DNA of 64,000 bases. It comes from Mesaphorura yosii. Lineage: Eukaryota > Arthropoda > Collembola > Poduromorpha > Tullbergiidae. The notes under the pieces were generated by a model. That model was not told where the DNA came from. It saw nothing but the letters and a program-made list of their open reading frames with translations, and made no database searches. Below, one piece after another: positions 40,100 through 58,196 of the stretch. A program made the translations under genes and the position numbers. Position 1 is the stretch's first letter, and each line of letters starts with the position of its first letter. The stretch is from positions 62,001-126,000 of the forward strand of contig WIXG01000134.1 of assembly GCA_009869945.1 (NCBI GenBank). Direction: 5' to 3'.

Positions 40100-47254
<7,155 letters not shown>

Positions 47255-47344: not shown

Positions 47345-47480
47345 CTATGAAAATTGCTCCACGAGAAATGCCCCCAGGAATTGCTCCAGGAGAAATGTTT
47401 CCAGACAATTGCTCCAAGACAATTGTTTCCGAACAAATGGTCCCAAATAATTGTTCCAGGACAATTGTTCTGGAGGAACT
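47345..47480. repeat. Degenerate short tandem repeat after NALCN
   Basis: An imperfect unit alternates between forms like CCAGGAGAAATG and CCAGGACAATTGTTCC, several copies in a row, between the ends of NALCN and the convergent minus-strand gene. No protein can be assigned to it. It may belong to a 3' UTR. Confidence 0.65.
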
Positions 47481-47730: not shown

Positions 47731-48965
47731 TTAGATTAGGCGACGAAATGGGTCATGAAGGCGCTTTGTTGGTTTCGCCCGTTTTGAGAGTCCAAGTCTG
47801 AGAAAGATGCCGGAGTTAACATGCTCAGGATTCGGGATGTACATCTGCTTGTCCACATTTCCTGTATCAGTGCCAGAATCACACCCTGTGAATATGAAGC
47901 ATTACACTTATTTTTGGAATGGGCCGAATTGATCGCGTTTACATCTTGTAATGCTTTGTTTCGTTTACCTTTTTGAGTCGCATTTTCACAATTTTCAGGT
48001 GCGATGTTCTCCTTATTTTCATCCATCTCATCATAATATTCGTAAAAGCGAGAGACGCCTTTTGATTTATGGAGCATGTCTTCTCGGTCTTGAAAACTTG
48101 GCGAGTCTGATTCTGTGACAATAATCTTGGCCACCTTTCGCTGGTAGATTGATTCGTTTTGAATTTCATTCTTGGTTCTGCTCTCGCTTTTGTCATCGGG
48201 ATACTCCGGAACCAAATGATCGTCACGAATGGATTCAATCGCAGGACTATCTTGCTTTTGCTGTGTATCGGCATCATAAAATGCATGTTCTGTAAAACGG
48301 GTAAAATAAACAAATGAAAATCAGCAAAGCAAAGAAATGATCTCAGATTCAAATGGTAAAAGAACTTCCTAAATTGTCCTACCTTCATCCTTAGGTTGCA
48401 ATTCATTGAATGAGTCAGCCGGGACCACCTGCTCGAAGCTGAAGGGCGCCAGATCCTTGTTGTTGTCCATGTTTGTGCTGACGTCCACTGTCTGGTACAA
48501 ATCATCAGAAGTTGTAAAGGCGTCGGAACAATCGACCACCGGTGCATGTGATAAGAGAAATTCTTGGCTCATTGAAGTGATGGAGTCCTTGGTTTCAATT
48601 GCAGGACGTGCTTCTTCAATAATCTTCTCTAGCTCTTGACTCATCGCGGTGAAAGCATCTTTCGTCTCAACATGGGGGTGAAAGTTTGGTTCTTGGCTCA
48701 TGGTTGTGAAGGAGTCCTTCATGTCAATGCCAATCTGTGAAGGATGACAGCCTGGTGGATTTTCAGTTTCACCATGAGGCTCTTCAATTTGATTGTTGAT
48801 CGTCTCGTTTGCGTTGTCAGTGATTTCATCATGTTGGCGCACACAGATTGGTGAATCCTGGCTACAAGGACCACAACCAGAAGCAGCTAAACGTACGCTG
48901 GTCAGCAAGTAGGAGATGATATCTGCAATTTCTTCCGATTCACTCAACGCCGTGACTTGGTCCAT
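47731..48965 (-). CDS. Uncharacterised SQ-cluster protein with RAD51AP1-like C-terminus
   Basis: I cannot name this protein. Three exons, 48383-48965, 47969-48289 and 47731-47885, close in frame to 352 residues starting MDQVTALSES. Residues 81-135 hold a 12-residue repeat, three times ending MSQE plus a decayed copy at 145-155. In all there are SQ sites at 35, 76, 90, 109 and 133, the signature of an ATM/ATR SQ-cluster. A KEN box (ENKENIAPEN) sits at 287-289. The last exon encodes a basic tail with FLRLGLSKRAKPTKRLHDPF near 328-347, which resembles the LRLGLSR...KPLHP tail through which RAD51AP1 binds RAD51. The rest is acidic, Ser/Asn-rich and probably disordered. The middle-to-last intron is 83 nt with a strong donor (AAAAAG|GTAAACG). 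If it is retained, a different C-terminus is read, ending at 47736. The RAD51 link is inference from a short motif. Confidence 0.75.
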
Positions 48966-49715
48966 CTTGAAATTGTGGGTTTCCGGAGTATAGCAACTAA
49001 TGAGCACATTAAGATTAGAATAAATTTAGCGAAAAAATGAGAAGTGCGAAAATTCGCGTATGAAAAATGATATCAACAGTGAGGTGAAACAAAAGGCGTG
49101 AAAGTAAGAACGAATAAATGGCGGAATAATGAAATAACCAGAAGAAAATGTACGACTTCCACTGAAAATCAAACGCGAGAATACAAAGCAGTTTTTGAAT
49201 GAACATATGAGGAGAAAAGAAGCATAAAACGACAGAAACGACTCACTCGTTTATGAGTGAAGAAATTCGATTTTATTAACGGCAATGCAACCCTCAACAA
49301 GGTTTGAATCAAGGACCGTAAACGCTATTAGCTAATTGTGTATTTATTTATGCATACTCATTTAACTAACAATGCGAAGCTCTGTGCAGTATTTACGGTC
49401 CTTGGTTTGAATGATTTCCAATATTATTGCCACCACCACTTGTCTCATAACATTGTGCAGTCTAGATCAAGATTACATTTGCGACTTTTTATTGGAGCTT
49501 GCCATTTCTCCTCGGAGCGGAGAAACTAACAAGACCGCCCCATTGTTACTTGATGATTACGAACCGCGTTTATTACTGAAAAAGAAAAATTGCACTTAAT
49601 TATTATGCTTAACATAAACACGTCAGAGGAAAATTCCTTCAACACTTCCTTATCAGCTAAGCGTAGGAGCTGCACGTTGCAGCCGTAACGACAAGAAGCT
49701 GGCTTTTCAAGTACT
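48966..49715. other. Intergenic spacer between kinesin and SQ-cluster gene
   Basis: This 750-bp spacer holds the probable kinesin 3' UTR (minus-strand AATAAA near 49569-49574) and the promoter side of the next gene. It contains an imperfect inverted repeat (49310-49322 with 49392-49404). No coding exon is supported. Confidence 0.5.
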
Positions 49716-52700
49716 CTATTTCATCCCCAACATTCGTTCTATTTCATCCGCGAAATCATCAGGCGACGTTTCCACCACAGGTTTTTCGGCCTTTGTCGGT
49801 GCCTTCACTGTCGCTGGTTTGCTAAGCTCGTCTAACGGCGGGAGTATTGTCTTGGACATATCTTGAAAACATAATGGCGATGACGACGCTTGATTTTCAG
49901 AAATCTCTCGAAAGATTTCGATTGATTCCCTGTGCAATTTTGGTGGAACTTCTATCACTGTCTCATGTCCTGGTGCTGGACTTATAAACTTTGATAGCGC
50001 AGGAGATTCTTTGACCGATCTTGAACTTTCGACGTTCTCGGATACTCCGCTCTGATTCGTGTGATACGGCATTTTGATCGAATCCGTTTTGGAACTTGAG
50101 TTTGATTCATTCTGTTTGAAGTCTCGTCCTTCACGTGAATTCGAATTGGAGCTGGAATGTTTGGTTGGGAAAACAGAATGGATAACTGAAGGAGTTCGGC
50201 GGTGAACGATGAGATTGTCGACTTTTGTAGGCAACTTGTTTTCAAACATAGGGTGGGTCTGAGATGGTGGCTGTTTCATCCAATCCATGTTGAATTTGTT
50301 TCTGTTCAGAACACCAACACAATATTCTTAGGAATTAGAAAAAAGTTTAAAACTGTTCAAAGCTATTTGATAATTACTTATTCTGGGCGACGGGTGCGGT
50401 TTCAGGGTCACGATTTAACTTCGCATTCTTTGCTTTGAGTAAAAACACTTCCTGCGTGAGGCGTTTATTTTCCTCCGTCATTTTACTGATATCAGGGAAG
50501 TCGGGCGGAAGGAGCCCGTGCTCACCAGAACGAGCTCGTTCGATTTGTTCAGCCATGTAATTGCACTGTACTTCTGTCGTGGCCTATTAACACATGAGAG
50601 AAAAATTGAGTTTTTCTAAGCTTCTAAGCTTTTCTAGGCTTCCACTGTAATTTCGCTTACACAATTTTTCGGCAGCCGATTTCGTTCTTGCTCGGTTTTC
50701 AAAGCTGAATTGCGATCCTTCAGCCGATTTATCTGCATGAGAAGCCAACCAAATACATTTAAAAAGTCAAAAGCGAGAAGGAAAGCTTTTCAAACTTTTA
50801 GAAATTCACAAACCTCGTCATCCTTCAATGCAACAGTTGTCTTCAGTTCCATCATTAAGCCTTCATACTTTTTGATTTCTTGAGAAAGGCCTTCGCGTTC
50901 TTTTTGAGTCCGATTTTCTTGAGTCTTATATTTTATGAGTAAATCTCGATAGCGAGCTTTAAAATAAACAAAATGATAATTGTATTACATTTTCAAGGCG
51001 AAAATCTTAGCGTCATGTTGTCCTTACATGTAATGTCCAGGCCCGGATCCGTTTGAGCACTCCGGTTCAACTTACGTCTTGGCGTGCCCGTTCCGTTGCC
51101 GTTATTTTGGCTATTATCTCCATCCTGTGTGCCTCTGGGAAGCTCATCAGTTTGTACGGACTGCTCTACACGCACTACTGACATTACAACAACGGGCGAA
51201 ACGTCCTCGGTTGTTTGGCTCCACTGTTCGTGAAGCGCAGCCTTCGCTATATCGTCGGTTTGGACATCCTGATTAGAACGAAGTACATCAATAGTTTGAG
51301 TAACTTGGTCGGAAACGAGGTGAATAATTTCGTCTGTCTGAACAACTCGGTTAGAAACTGGAGTTTTCGGTGGATCGTCAGTTTGCATAAATTGATGTAC
51401 AAGTGATACTGTGATCTGTTCCGTTTGCAGGCATTGGTCAGCGATAAGTACTTTCGGTTCTTCCTCTGTTTGTAGGCTTTGGTCAGCCAGAAGCACTTTC
51501 GGTTCTTCCTCTGTTTGTAGGCTTTGGTCAGCCAGAAGCACTTTCGGTTCTTCCTCTGTTTGTAGGCTTTGGTCAGCCAGAAGTACTCTTGGCTCTTCCT
51601 CCGTTTGAGCATCTTGATGAGCTTGCGAAATTGCTTCGGTTTGACTGTGCACATCAGCAAGCAAAGCCACTTGAATATCGTCAGTCTGAATGTTCTGATT
51701 GCAAGGTACAATTTTCAGTTGATCTTCCGTCTGAATCTCCTGATCACTCTGGAAGATAACATCAGTTTGCATGTACTGATCGGAAACAGGTCGTACTTCA
51801 TCCTCAAAGACAATCTGAACATCACGATGTGCTGTCAAAACATCGTCCGTTTGGACAAACTGGTCAATTTGTTCCCGGTTCACTTCATCTGTTTGAGTGT
51901 CCTCCTCAGCTTGCGTTATTTGATCAGTTTGTACGATTTGATCAACCCCCACAAGTGGCTCCTCTTCCGTTTGATTTTCCTGATCAGTTTGCAGTATGTT
52001 GTCAGTTTGAATACATCGATCCTCAAGTGCATTTCTCAGCACATCATCAGTTTGGACACACAGATCAGTGGATCCTTTTTGGCATGATGTTTCTGTGATG
52101 AGATCGCACAAAACGGAGGCATCTAACGTCTCAACGGGCGCGAGAGCTTCCAGTGCTAGTAGATGTAGCCCTTTCTTCAATTGGGAGAGTTCGAAAAGTG
52201 TGTCTTCCTGTAGTATATTTTACTTGCAAATACAAAGACGTTAACATCTTCTGATATGAATTGCTGTAATGCTGTACCTGCATGACTTCCATATCCTCAA
52301 TTGTTGACAATTGCTCCGCGTTTGTGAGTTTCAATACTGTATTCTCTGAAATTAGTCGCGAATTTTCCTCCTCCAAATCAGCTATTTGTGAACTTTCAGA
52401 ATTCTGCAAAACATTTGAATTATTAGTACACTGCACATTCAATCATGTTGCCTTAAAAACTTTACCTTAAGCACATCTACTTCATTCTTTGCCCTGGTCA
52501 ACTCAGCTCTTAGAAGTTCAATTTTGTCTTCCATTTCTTTATTCCGAACAGGAGTTGCAGGAGCTTCGCTATTGCCCTGTCCATGGTTTACACGGGATGA
52601 CTCTACCTCCTTAAAATATTAAGATCACAATGAAGCAATCAGTGAATAAGAATCGGCACTTCAAAGCCTAATAATAGTCAATACCTCTAAAAGTCTCCTT

Positions 52701-55343
52701 TTGACTCGTATTAGCTCCGCATTTAGTCGCTCCAGTTCCTTGTACTCGTATTCCAGTGTCTCAAATTTTTTATTCAGTTCTACAACTTTCGCCTTTTCAA
52801 TCTCCTAAACAATTTCGTCGGAAAATTGAAATGTAATCCAGTACAATCTTGAACATATTTTGTGTTCATCAGTACCAGTTCGGAATTATGAAAAATCTTC
52901 AATGCTTCTGCATCTTGCGCCTGATCTATTAGAGCAACGCACAATTCTGCCCTTATCTTTCGTGAAACTGGTCCTGGCGTCCCGCGGATGTTAGTAGTGC
53001 AGGAGGTATTAAGAGAGTCAGTGTCCTCAAAGTATTTTGACTTCTTCGCCTTTGGCGGAGGCATTTCCGAATCAGAATCAGAGTTCCTGGAGAATTGATA
53101 AAGTCGTAGTCACTTGTGTGGCTGTGTAGTCCCTTAGTAGTTAGTTCTTTCACTTACTCAGCCTGAGCCACAGCAATTAAAACGTCAGCGTCAGTTTGAG
53201 TCTCTACGTCTTCCGTTGATTTCAGCTCGGCAGGGCAACGTTTTTGTTGCGTCTTCACGGGTGTTGATAATATATCGGACATCGGCTCGAAATTCCTTTG
53301 CTTTTCAAGTTCGCAGAAATGAATCAAGGCATCCGATGGCGACATGAAAACTTAAGGCAAACAAGACACAAGGCCTACATAAATCTGTTTTTACAACAGT
53401 CCATTGAAGATTAATATGTAACTTACAGTCAGTTCGTCGTCGTTTGATTTCGAGTTCTGGCTCACCACTTCTCAATTTCGAATCTGTGTTCACTTCTTTC
53501 TCATCAATAGTAGGAAATTCGGAATGAGGAAAACTGCGAGATCGCTTATTTTTTATTAAGTTGGCACACCAAGTTTTTCTCCGCTGAAATGAAGAGAATT
53601 TTTTAAGTTGGAATTTTCTCCGCAGTGATTCAGGATAGAGGAAATTCACTTACCTCCGACAATCCAGAAACAGGCATTTTGTCATTCTTAGGAGGAGTCT
53701 TGCAAATAGAGAATTTTTGGTATACACCCAATTGCTTTCTTAAGTAATCAACCTCCGATTGCTTCCTCTGCGTAGTTAAAATTTGACCAGTTAGTAAATG
53801 TGTAAATGGTTAAGGAGCACGACAGACAGCACAAATCCGCCCACTTACGTCAAGATCAAGCTGAAGCTCTCGAATCTTCTGCTTCGATTCTTCGTTATTA
53901 AGTAATTTGTGGTTCGGTTTGGGTGCTGTTTTTATAGTCTTAGCAGTTTTGGCAAACCTGAATTCATAAAGTATAAAGAAAAAGTGATGTATAGTCTCAA
54001 ACACAATGCAACCGGTTGTCTCACCTTAATGTTGAAAGAGTCTCCTCCAATGATAACAGGGCTGGAGTGACGTTGCAAATAATGGCAGTGAACGCGTTTC
54101 CACTTAATGAGTTTTTAAGAATATGTGTCAGTTTGCTATCTCGAAAGTTGATGTATCTTGAAGATTGTGCCCTTTTGGAAATTGCTGATGCACTCGCCGT
54201 AACATTCAAAACAGACATATTATGTAATGCAGCTTCGCCACCACCACCAGACGTTAGCTGCATAACAACTTGAGCCAGGACAGATAATGACTTATTGATA
54301 AATGTGGCCTCCCGAAACCTTTCTCCTTGAGCTCCCGTTTGCCCCGCTTTCTCTGACCCGGCCAAGTCAACAAAGTTGAGCAGAGCGTTCGTAACTTGTA
54401 TTTCCTCAGGAGCATCCAATTCGGTACTTTGAATTGGAATAATCTCAAGCTGGATTCTGAGGATGGTGTGAGATCTACTGCTTTCCTTATTCATCCTCGT
54501 TTCACCAATCTTTCTTTGGCTCTGTACTTTCTTCACATTTTCGAGAATATCTTGAGGACACAGAACCTGAACTTCTGACAGATTCTTCGGCACAACAATT
54601 CCACCGATTTCACTGATCGTGACTTCATTGCCACTAAGTAGGTCGGATACTTTTTCATTGTATATCTCAAGAAGTCCCACTCTGCAATTGGAAAATATTG
54701 GTTAGCTATTACCACAACACCAACTCCAACAGAGGTCCACACTCCACTGACCTGATGATGTAAGAGTTTGAGTTATCGTTAGATATTCTTTTGAACAAAT
54801 CTCGCGCAGCCAAAGAAATAATGCCCTCTTCCTGGTCATTTCCATACAACGTGAATGTTTTACCTATAAATTACAAACGAGGACTGGCTCAAGGGTGTGT
54901 ACTGGTGACAGTCATAGAAGTACACATTACCTGATGACGTCTGACCATAGCACAATACAGTGCCGTTAAACCCGTTAAATGCTTCATTAATAATTGGACT
55001 TATGACTTGGTTATAAACTTCCGTTGTTTTCTGCTCCACTCCGAAGACGTGGTCAAATGCATGCGGAAGAGCATTGGAGGAATTTCTTTTCGTATCGGGG
55101 TCAATCTGCTGGAGATATGTGGTGTTGCTTATCCAGGAATTTTGGGAACCTTGAAAAAACGTACGATACCATCATGATCAGAAACACAATGAATGCTTAC
55201 AATGGAAGGTGAAAGACCATCAATGATCGCTTACCTGCTTGTTCTTCTCGTTCAATCAAAGGTCGTATTCGTACTGCCACACGAACATTATCCCCGTTGG
55301 CATTGTTGACATCCGTAGATGATGACGATGTTGAGGGCAACAT
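49716..55343 (-). CDS. Kinesin-7-like (CENP-E type) motor with a QT-motif array
   Basis: This is an N-terminal motor kinesin. Seventeen exons close to 1,485 residues: 55235-55343, 54931-55149, 54752-54863, 54025-54681, 53849-53957, 53654-53767, 53427-53583, 53158-53350, 52876-53086, 52685-52804, 52466-52609, 52278-52403, 51028-52207, 50814-50956, 50661-50732, 50378-50583, 49716-50301. The motor (about 17-378) has P-loop GQTSSGKT (105-112), switch I NKESSRSH (211-218) and switch II VDLAGSE (251-257), so it should be an active ATPase. Motifs such as FRDSKLTHILKNSL and the neck after RFAKTAK fit kinesin-7/CENP-E best. Coiled coil follows (about 628-757). Exon 13 encodes 23 QT motifs (about 809-1142), typical LC8 dynein light chain sites. 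More coiled coil and a Ser-rich tail ending DEIERMLGMK complete it. It is shorter than CENP-E. The kinesin class is less certain than the motor itself. Confidence 0.94.
51050..52060 (-). other. Array of 23 QT motifs (predicted LC8-binding ladder)
   Basis: Within exon 13 of the kinesin, 13 QTD and 8 QTE motifs plus QTI and QTT occur at a regular spacing of mostly 12, 14 or 15 residues. The residue before Q is most often V, I, L, M, S or T. This matches the known LC8/DYNLL recognition core (T/V/I-Q-T-D/E). Binding itself is inferred. Confidence 0.7.
51424..51603 (-). repeat. 45-bp tandem repeat, four copies, coding
   Basis: Four near-identical 45-bp units start at 51424, 51469, 51514 and 51559, each encoding one 15-residue module of the form LLADQSLQTEEEPKV. 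The two central copies are almost identical; the outer ones carry a few changes. The unit matches the spacing of the wider QT array, so it looks like a recent local expansion of an older repeat. Confidence 0.95.
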
Positions 55344-55931: not shown

Positions 55932-57520
55932 TCATACACATTCTTGCTCCAAACTCCGAAATTCATTGATTATGCCTTCTACCAGGCTCATGGCACTCGT
56001 TTTCTTTACTGAGACAATGTTCTCGTCTATACGAATCGCTAATCTCAAGTTACCATTGTACGTGGAGGCGACACAACCAATTCCTACGTTCCCAGGCATT
56101 CCAACTGTTGGCCAGAAGTGTATCAGTGGTCTATCCGCCACATTGATCTCCTTTGGAGGTCCAGGTAGATTGGAAAGTGCGGCAGTGGCTTGGTTGGTGG
56201 CTTTGGCCCGGCGTATCATACACGGAAAGAGACAGCCAACTAGTTTGACCATAATGAATACGAAATCAGGGACCAAGGATGACTTCTGTGCTAGAATATT
56301 CTGCTCCACCATTTTCAGCCTCTCCAGAATCGGAATCGTAGCATCAAATCGTGAGATTCGAACGCAGCAACTTGTGCTGAAAGTAAAACATACACCAGAT
56401 TAAGGAATTTCAGGATTAATATTGACAAGGCTTACAAGTGGTTGCGTAATTTCGAAGGATGCTTGGATCTTGGAAGTGAAATCCCAATGTTAATCTTCGC
56501 TGGCATTTTGAACTGATTTTGGATCAAAAATTTGCGTAAAGCCTCTGCATAAGCTATCAAAATAAGACCGTACAAGCTGACGTCTTTCGTCTTCAACTGC
56601 TTTTGCAAATTGATCTTCAGCTGTTTCAGCTTGCGCAGCGAAATTGGAGGCGAGACGGCAGCGTTCGCTTCGAGACTCAGTTTTGTGAATGGCAGGTGAA
56701 ATTCGTTCAATTCGTCCGACTGGTCAATTGCAGCAGCAACAATGTCGTACGGGGCACGAGCTAATTTCCTTGCATTCTGCATAATTGTGTTCTTCGGCGA
56801 AGGCACCGACGAAGCAGCTGCATTTTGGCCAAGATCCATTACAAGCAATTTTAGAAGCGAGTATCCATCAAGCACGCAATGATGAATGTGGAGAGTCATT
56901 CCACACCAAGGGCCGGTCCTCTCATCCACTGATTCTGATTCCACATTGTTGAACAGAATAATTTCCCACGGACTCTTGCGCTCAGCAAATGGCTGACACA
57001 TTAACGACTCTCCAAACCCAGCCAAATCACTGGCACTAAACAACTTCTGTTCCTTCTGATTCTGCTTCTGCCCTGACTCTGAATCTGAATCATACATTTT
57101 GATGTGGTGCTTGATATCAAACTGTCTGTCCCATTTCCAGAAGAGGAATCCAAGCCATTGAGTAATGTATTGCTGAAGCTCCGGATTTTGTAGTTCATTC
57201 CTGTTGCTGCCGTTCTCGTCTGAGTTGGCCAGATTAATCACACGCTGCATGAAGAGCTCTCTAAATTGGTGCAGATTGAATTGTCCTTTGAAAATGCAGT
57301 GGGCAACGATGCTCTCGGATGGTTTACCATGATAAACATTGCCACTTGCAAAAATTGTGTTTGAGGCTGTCAGTATTTTGCCGAAATCTTGCTTGAATGT
57401 TGTGCCAATTTTAGAAACCGCGAAGCGCCATACGTAAATTGGAACCACGCCCAGAAACAAAAGCGGGGCAAATACGACAGTCACAAGGATCAGAACCACG
57501 TTCACAAGTATGATCAACAT
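55932..57520 (-). CDS. Wax ester synthase/diacylglycerol acyltransferase-like (WSD) protein
   Basis: This is a membrane-linked O-acyltransferase of the WSD (WS/DGAT) superfamily, which joins fatty acyl-CoA to fatty alcohol or diacylglycerol. Two exons, 56436-57520 and 55932-56376, close to 509 residues. Residues 1-32 form a hydrophobic segment that should anchor it in the ER. The catalytic HHxxxDG is at 213-219 (HHCVLDG), preceded by SPWEIILFNN as in the family. The C-terminal WSD domain is visible in exon 2 (LSNLPGPP, GIGCVASTYNGNLRLAI). Length is as expected (450-600). Neither the substrate nor whether it makes wax or triacylglycerol can be told from sequence. It sits between ATM and the kinesin on the same strand with normal-sized spacers, so it is an independent gene. 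Confidence 0.93.
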
Positions 57521-58196
57521 GGTAGACTCTTATTTCAACAGTGCAAGATGGAATCCAAGACTGACACAATTCAGAGAGAACAGAAATCAAAGTTTTGAAC
57601 CCATTTTGCCATCATCACGCATTTCACACAAAGCGACTTCTGCCTTAAGTACTACGAGATTGGAATGCCTTAAATGCAAGGCCAACGCCAAATGGTCAGT
57701 TAAGAGCATTTGCAAAGAGAATATACGAAGATTAAGCTGACGCTCCTTTCACATTTACACGTGAGTTTACGCGAACAATTTCCCATGCGTGTAAGCAATC
57801 GGCATTATCAGGGTCGGGAATCAAAAAGTCGTGGTAGTCATGATGGCGTGTCTCACTCAAATATTATCAATTAGAAGAGCGTTTTCAGGTTTCCATTCAG
57901 ATCAATGATAATATGAGCATGTGTGACAAAATACCATTAAAATTATGAAGCATAGATTTCGTGTGCATTTGTTGAATGTAAAACTGAGTTGAAATTGAAA
58001 CTGTCCTTAGTAATGCCCATTTTATTAAATTCGACGGTTTTCAACATGTGAAAATATTACGCGGTAAAACGAAATTAATAAGACACGAACGGTTTGGTAG
58101 TACACAGAATTATTTAACTCTGTATGTTTCATAATACTGGAAAGCAACTAAGTAAGAAGTAAGAACTGGTAACTTTGACTGGCCAATTTGTGAGAT
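57521..58196. other. Spacer between ATM and the acyltransferase
   Basis: This 676-bp stretch has no supported gene. A minus-strand AATAAA at 58021-58026, about 170 nt after the ATM stop, is the likely ATM polyadenylation signal. Confidence 0.5.

Follow-up and report, generated by a model that had tools for sequence, protein, structure and literature searches.

How a motor protein could come to carry a long row of putative docking sites for the dynein light chain LC8 (DYNLL) is the question raised by a locus of the collembolan Mesaphorura yosii, in which one exon of a predicted kinesin gene encodes 23 glutamine-threonine (QT) dipeptides. The locus lies on the minus strand of a 64,000-nucleotide stretch of contig WIXG01000134.1, hereafter the window, whose numbering is used throughout. 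An earlier annotation made from the letters of this stretch (the sequence-only reading) had proposed that the array is a ladder of LC8 sites in a kinesin tail. Our analysis favors, as the moderately probable reading, that exon 13 of this gene encodes a region within a CENP-E-like kinesin stalk to which LC8 docks multivalently and which would zip two chains into a parallel duplex. The parts of the gene on which the argument draws are the following:

49716–55343, minus strand: CENP-E-like kinesin gene, predicted to have 17 exons and to encode 1485 amino acids (manual splice model and kinesin motor matches).
54025–55343, minus strand: exons 1–4, most of the kinesin motor domain (gene model, Pfam and structure matches).
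53158–53350, minus strand: exon 8, residues 493–556, with one extra LC8-type site (gene model).
53190–53213, minus strand: the upstream LC8-type site EDVETQTD in exon 8, anchored at Q544, which scores higher (16.7) than any other QT site in this kinesin (motif scoring).
52278–52804, minus strand: exons 10–12, introns included; heptad-like (coiled-coil-like) segments that precede the array (home-made heptad scan).
51028–52207, minus strand: exon 13, 393 amino acids, the LC8-type motif array with 23 QT anchors (gene model, motif counts).
51423–51607, minus strand: recent 45-bp tandem duplication within the array, 4.1 copies with 92% matches (tandem-repeat scan).
50378–50956, minus strand: exons 14–16, introns included; heptad-like segments that follow the array (home-made heptad scan).
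49716–50301, minus strand: exon 17, the C-terminal tail, ending in ...EIERMLGMK and a stop, with no CAAX box (gene model).

Counting in the translated exon 13, we found 23 QT dipeptides within 393 residues on the minus strand, with glutamine codons starting from 52054 to 51055, and 21 of them were QTD or QTE, exactly as the sequence-only reading had stated. The 22 spacings between successive anchors were 15 residues (nine times), 14 (four times), 12 (four times), 6 (twice), 21, 28 and 33; the rhythm of mostly 12, 14 or 15 residues described earlier was therefore recovered in 17 of the 22. When the residues of the exon were shuffled 20,000 times, QT occurred on average 5.2 times and at most 14 times, and QT[D/E] on average 1.06 times and at most seven times; a chance origin of the array was rejected, as the observed 23 QT exceed the maximum of all shuffles. 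The composition of the exon is strongly acidic (81 D+E versus 23 K+R). Four decayed copies of the dipeptide are also present (QA twice, QI and QS). Such copies had been said to fall where the rhythm would otherwise skip, which applies only to QI, inside the 28-residue gap, whereas each of the other three divides a 12-residue spacing in half (6+6).

Over the whole exon, three of the four 12-residue spacings hold such a decayed midpoint copy (QA, QS, QA), and two 6-residue QT spacings lie near the array start. Parts of the array (51605–52009, minus strand) resemble a hexapeptide QTDQx[V/I/L], from which the array may have originated. At 51423–51607 (minus strand), four near-identical 45-bp units follow one another, and the protein has three identical copies of LLADQSLQTEEEPKV, 15 residues each. 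Because of these three identical units, the array seems to be still growing, and its copy number may vary between individuals. A search of the exon 13 protein against the genome assembly (93.0 Mb, 1127 contigs) returned only itself and one match at E 1.33, with no second copy and no other arrays, and a Pfam search of the exon gave a single match below the cut-off (T4 RNase H C-terminal, E 0.024), which we took as chance.

The kinesin gene is a predicted one, its model having been assembled manually on the basis of splice signals. The 16 introns, all GT..AG, measure 62–85 nt, and the frame is unbroken across every junction. Exon 13, number 13 of 17, is 1180 nt long and begins in phase 0 but ends in phase 1; if it is skipped, exon 14 is read in the wrong frame and reaches a stop at its eighth codon, so that a kinesin mRNA lacking exon 13 would be truncated. 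The assumption that the array belongs to the kinesin mRNA is thus upheld in the manual model.

Residues 25–374 match the Pfam Kinesin domain (PF00225, E 6e-92, 308.5 bits), and the best match of the motor among solved structures is CENP-E (227.7 bits with one CENP-E sequence and 226.5 with another), followed by KIF3B as the next class (208.7 bits), in agreement with the kinesin-7-like identity suggested before. When human CENP-E was searched against the genome exon by exon, a comparison of single exons rather than whole motors, single exons at six other places (C314, C490, C174, C7 twice and C75) scored above the best exon of the array kinesin. The best matches of these other kinesin exons were KIF18A (C314), KIF13B (C490), KIF1A (C174) and KIF3B (C7), in a comparison that covered these four. 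In view of this exon-wise reciprocal search, we call the array-bearing gene CENP-E-like (kinesin-7-like) and do not claim it as a proven ortholog. The farnesylation box of CENP-E has the CAAX form, which is not counted here as defining all kinesin-7 proteins. The C-terminus of the array kinesin (...EIERMLGMK) departs from this vertebrate-type box.

The array was then compared with the natural LC8 consensus, [D/S]-4 K-3 x-2 [T/V/I]-1 Q0 [T/V]1 [D/E]2 (PMC3078936), with which it agrees, the main exception being Q for K at position -3. All 23 sites carry D, N, E or H at position -4, and 19 of them carry Q or R at position -3; position -2 is unconstrained, and position -1 is T in two, V in six, I in three, S in two, L in five, M in two, A in two and N in one. 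A -1 residue with LC8 precedent (T, V, I or S) is thus present in 13 of 23 sites. The core (T/V/I)QT(D/E) invoked in the sequence-only reading fits at -1 in 11 sites (T 2, V 6, I 3), two more have the precedented S, and it fails in the ten that have L, M, A or N. The array also conforms to the motif rule for multivalent LC8 clients (Q at 0, T/V/I at +1, a polar residue at -4, D/E/P at +2, and at least two motifs).

Across the 21 non-identical units, the ratio of the proportions of nonsynonymous and synonymous differences (pN/pS) was 0.31 at positions -4, -3 and +2 (bootstrap 95% 0.20–0.46; pS 0.93), in comparison with 0.96 in the linkers (0.85–1.08; pS 0.70). Units were picked by QT, and the three flanking positions played no part in the choice; the zero amino-acid divergence (pN = 0) at Q and T was not counted, since it would be circular. 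Synonymous differences are near saturation, which marks the units as old in their DNA. A pure DNA repeat without function was rejected for most units, because positions -4, -3 and +2 are constrained while synonymous sites are saturated. The exon 8 site, this constraint at -4 and -3, and the three identical 15-residue units go beyond what had been noted earlier for this locus.

Individual sites were scored with an LC8 matrix made from 45 binders and 28 non-binders, none of them viral, drawn from the tables of PMC6607443, PMC5746249, PMC5963919 and PMC3789673, the rows of the last being that paper's own compilation. We dropped all viral and phage peptides; the weak binders GP1BA, TOGARAM1, ARAP3, ROR1 and the first WWC2 motif; peptides with non-Q or otherwise unusual anchors (three WWC TNT motifs, dASCIZ QT3, GCOM1, PAK1, RACK1 and TRPS1); and duplicates, solubility variants, a shifted Bassoon peptide and non-binders without a usable QT-like anchor. 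The SCRN2 non-binder was mis-anchored in the scoring. Binders were scored by leave-one-out and non-binders with the full matrix. On this scale, 17 of the 23 array sites lie above the lower quartile of verified binders and 17 above the median non-binder, and 10 of 23 pass a strict rule set. To lessen the influence of relatedness among the units, we permuted the six flanking columns of the matrix (720 orders), and the true order ranked third with a proteome background and fifth with an exon background.

Several published observations bear on the anchors that depart from TQT. Q at -3 occurs in three verified binders of the set (MAST1, RASGRP3 and dASCIZ QT6), a 2025 review calls VQT and IQT structurally similar to TQT, and the VQT peptides of SON and MAST1 have been reported to bind LC8. 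Abolishing LC8 binding of human ASCIZ reportedly needed mutation of three SQT/VQT motifs in addition to 11 TQT motifs, which favors V and S as anchors. In Drosophila ASCIZ, six single-motif peptides bind at 7–20 µM, with a seventh too weak to measure, and multivalent constructs bind at 1–4 µM; dimeric peptides bind LC8 at the limit of the method, below 0.01 µM (PMC3078936). Given this multivalency and these affinities of dimerized peptides, the weakness of single sites does not by itself argue against binding by a dimeric stalk. Collectively, the motif evidence makes LC8 the most likely ligand of the array and its binding there very likely.

The genome encodes LC8 itself, in a two-exon gene on C9; its product shares 86 of its 89 residues with a solved LC8 chain. 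Two further Dynein_light (PF01221) matches, L002 and L004, score 46.7 and 35.2 bits; they are possible LC8 paralogs that might bind the array as well.

The geometry of the array was examined in the same light. One anchor lies 6 residues from each of its two neighbors, and therefore at most 22 of the 23 sites could be occupied together. In this 22-site set, the linkers (spacing minus 8) measure 6–7 residues in 13 of 21 cases and 4 in five, the remainder being 13, 20 and 25. Linkers of 6 and 9 residues in Drosophila ASCIZ are reported to give homogeneous complexes and those of 3, 30 and 41 heterogeneous ones, and the supposed likeness of the linkers to those of multivalent LC8 clients was upheld. 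The first and last anchors are 333 residues apart, corresponding to a contour of about 110 nm at 0.33 nm per residue. A home-made scan marked heptad-like segments at residues 624–671, 688–727 and 747–775 before the array, the last reaching into exon 13, and at 1148–1212 and 1253–1281 after it. These flanks comprise 211 heptad-like residues within spans of 152 and 134, or roughly 30–45 nm at the coiled-coil rise of 0.15 nm. AlphaFold2, run on exon 13 as a single sequence without an alignment, gave no confident fold (mean confidence score, pLDDT, 32.8; 0 of 393 residues at 70 or above), and a folded repeat was rejected on this weak evidence.

From these features, we propose a model in which each unit, roughly [D/N]-[Q/R]-x-[V/I/L/..]-Q-T-[D/E], would dock as an added beta strand in one of the two grooves of an LC8 dimer. 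As this class of kinesin is dimeric and coiled-coil-like segments lie on either side of the array, the second groove would be taken by the matching site of the sister chain. A maximum of 22 LC8 dimers in register would then form a ladder with a contour of about 110 nm between two coiled coils, holding the two chains parallel and providing, in a way dependent on LC8, a large part of the stalk length that vertebrate CENP-E obtains from a discontinuous coiled coil. A duplex with several rungs is likely, and the chances that the array serves the stalk in this way are about even. Full occupancy of 22 rungs is unlikely, because ASCIZ, which also has many sites, is reported to be rarely fully occupied, and this behavior already counts against a complete ladder.

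Further observations weigh against the ladder. In ten of the 23 sites, the -1 residue is L, M, A or N. The home-made matrix separates binders from non-binders modestly (area under the curve 0.72), and the mean array site score of 9.97 is below the leave-one-out median of the binders, 12.4. The matrix scoring called for in the sequence-only reading therefore gave a divided answer: most sites pass the lower quartile of binders, and none of the 23 exceeds the best-scoring non-binder, which only the exon 8 site does. Q at -3 is also found in three non-binders (EIF3C, NFYC and DDX1). Peptides with LQT from PLK1, AQT from IRS1 and IQT from two cellular proteins (FMN2 and DAZL) were reported without binding in isothermal titration calorimetry, as was a viral IQT peptide outside the matrix set. 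Five of the 21 linkers are only 4 residues long, and gaps of 13, 20 and 25 are also present. The heptad scan marks part of the motor (190–217) and of the array itself (1041–1068), and the low-confidence AlphaFold2 model has helices at both ends of exon 13.

Some of these points would also fit an array that acts as a buffer or sensor of LC8, binding loosely and with variable occupancy as in ASCIZ, so that stiffness, autoinhibition or activity would follow the LC8 level and no rigid rod would form. The sites are many and weak-looking, 10 of 23 anchors are without precedent, the spacings are mixed, from 6 to 33 residues, and ASCIZ complexes are described as dynamic and partly filled. We nevertheless regard such a sensor as unlikely, since 13 of 21 linkers, at 6–7 residues, are near the lengths that give homogeneous complexes, and since the coiled coil would pre-dimerize the chains and raise affinity, as reported for dimeric peptides (below 0.01 µM).

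It is less probable still that the array is read by another ligand recognizing DQx[VIL]QT[DE], or that it is an acidic disordered spacer with no ligand. Position -1 is V, I or L rather than T in 14 of 23 sites and position -3 is mostly Q, not K or R, and the composition is strongly acidic (81 D+E versus 23 K+R), which would speak for such a reading. A spacer, however, would not keep positions -4, -3 and +2 beside QT while third codon positions saturate, and the column order of the matrix fits LC8; the absence of a folded repeat in the single-sequence AlphaFold2 run is weak evidence against this reading.

The sequence-only reading had further supposed that the array would link a plus-end motor to the dynein light chain hub. 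In a physical bridge of this kind, LC8 bound to the array would tether the kinesin to the cytoplasmic dynein motor, with the kinetochore corona as one conceivable site; RZZ-Spindly and CENP-E have been reported as one dynein-recruiting platform. A link to dynein was not supported: LC8 is reported to bind symmetrically, its grooves take two copies of one client, and different clients are reported not to be bridged (PMC12057147), which makes a dynein bridge highly improbable; an LC8 dimer in register on the array would moreover have no free groove. A search of the genome for the Zw10 N-domain, as RZZ context, gave no match, a search unable to show absence. Finally, an artefact, with exon 13 outside the kinesin mRNA or its copy number an assembly error, is scarcely credible, because, even though near-identical 45-bp units could be mis-assembled and the gene model is predicted only, the exon phases fit, skipping exon 13 breaks the frame, and 21 of 23 units, diverged in their DNA, are left without the two extra identical copies.

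Elsewhere in the window, an open frame at 48369–49025 (minus strand; 218 amino acids, stop to stop) has no Pfam match and contains three clear copies of a [DE][MT]KD[AS][FI]T[AST]MSQE-like motif and a looser fourth; it is probably a separate gene downstream of the kinesin. The C-terminal part of a NALCN sodium leak channel lies at 46421–47254 (plus strand), where frame residues 15–193 match solved NALCN with 173.7 bits, and earlier NALCN exons were recognized upstream by eye only. About 100 bp past the stop of this ion-channel gene, a 14-bp tandem repeat with the consensus AATTGTTCCAGGAC occupies 47352–47470. A fragment resembling wax ester synthase/DGAT acyltransferases lies at 56432–57529 (minus strand; PF03007, 23.3 bits, just below the curated cut-off of 23.6). 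Scans for tRNA genes and Rfam families gave no matches in the 64,000-nt window.

Multivalent LC8 clients are a known kind of protein, and an array of such size in a kinesin stalk appears to be new. Of the comparable proteins, ASCIZ/ATMIN also has many LC8-type motifs, in a long disordered region. It differs in being a transcription factor of the zinc-finger type, in which most anchors are TQT and the groups of sites are separated by long linkers; the kinesin array lies in a motor stalk, and its 23 anchors, in which V, L or I predominate at -1, are joined by fairly even linkers. Astrin/SPAG5 is not a kinesin. It resembles the present case as a spindle and kinetochore protein with a peptide that binds LC8, and the SKAP-Astrin complex may include LC8, but a single LC8 peptide of Astrin is listed in the published table. 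In the yeast nuclear pore, Nup159-Dyn2 is described as having a row of LC8 sites beside a predicted coiled coil and a stack of five LC8 dimers; in contrast to the kinesin, it has 5 sites versus 23 and belongs to a nuclear pore protein without a motor. With CENP-E, the array kinesin shares the motor match and the order of an N-terminal motor followed by interrupted coiled-coil-like segments. Human CENP-E, however, is reported at 2701 amino acids versus 1485 and as farnesylated, and the array kinesin has a motif array within its stalk and no CAAX box.

The largest LC8 array that we found in the literature, as far as the sources extend, is that of human ASCIZ, with 11 verified sites and 16 predicted by LC8Pred (Drosophila ASCIZ has seven), in line with the earlier statement that no LC8 partner has this many sites; the 23 anchors are about twice the 11 verified ones. 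Among the matches listed in open-access literature, mostly titles and the openings of abstracts, no kinesin or CENP-E with an LC8 motif array appeared, which leaves uncontradicted the claim that no kinesin is known with such an array; literature on KIF1C mentions DYNLL.

In summary, CENP-E molecules as long as 230 nm have been seen in rotary shadowing, and a review regards both stalk length and stalk flexibility as important for activity, for reasons that are unclear. We tentatively suggest, as a possibility short of an even chance, that in this collembolan an LC8 ladder took over the job of the coiled coil in a CENP-E-type stalk, with the number of bound LC8 dimers, out of about 22, determining the reach and stiffness of the motor and possibly its autoinhibition; the array would then be larger than any other known for LC8 and the first of its kind in a kinesin. 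The array would offer a natural test of long LC8 ladders with a coiled coil at both ends, and it yields short peptides that can be tested. If the model is correct, the length and stiffness of a kinesin stalk would be tunable by one abundant protein and by the gain and loss of motifs.
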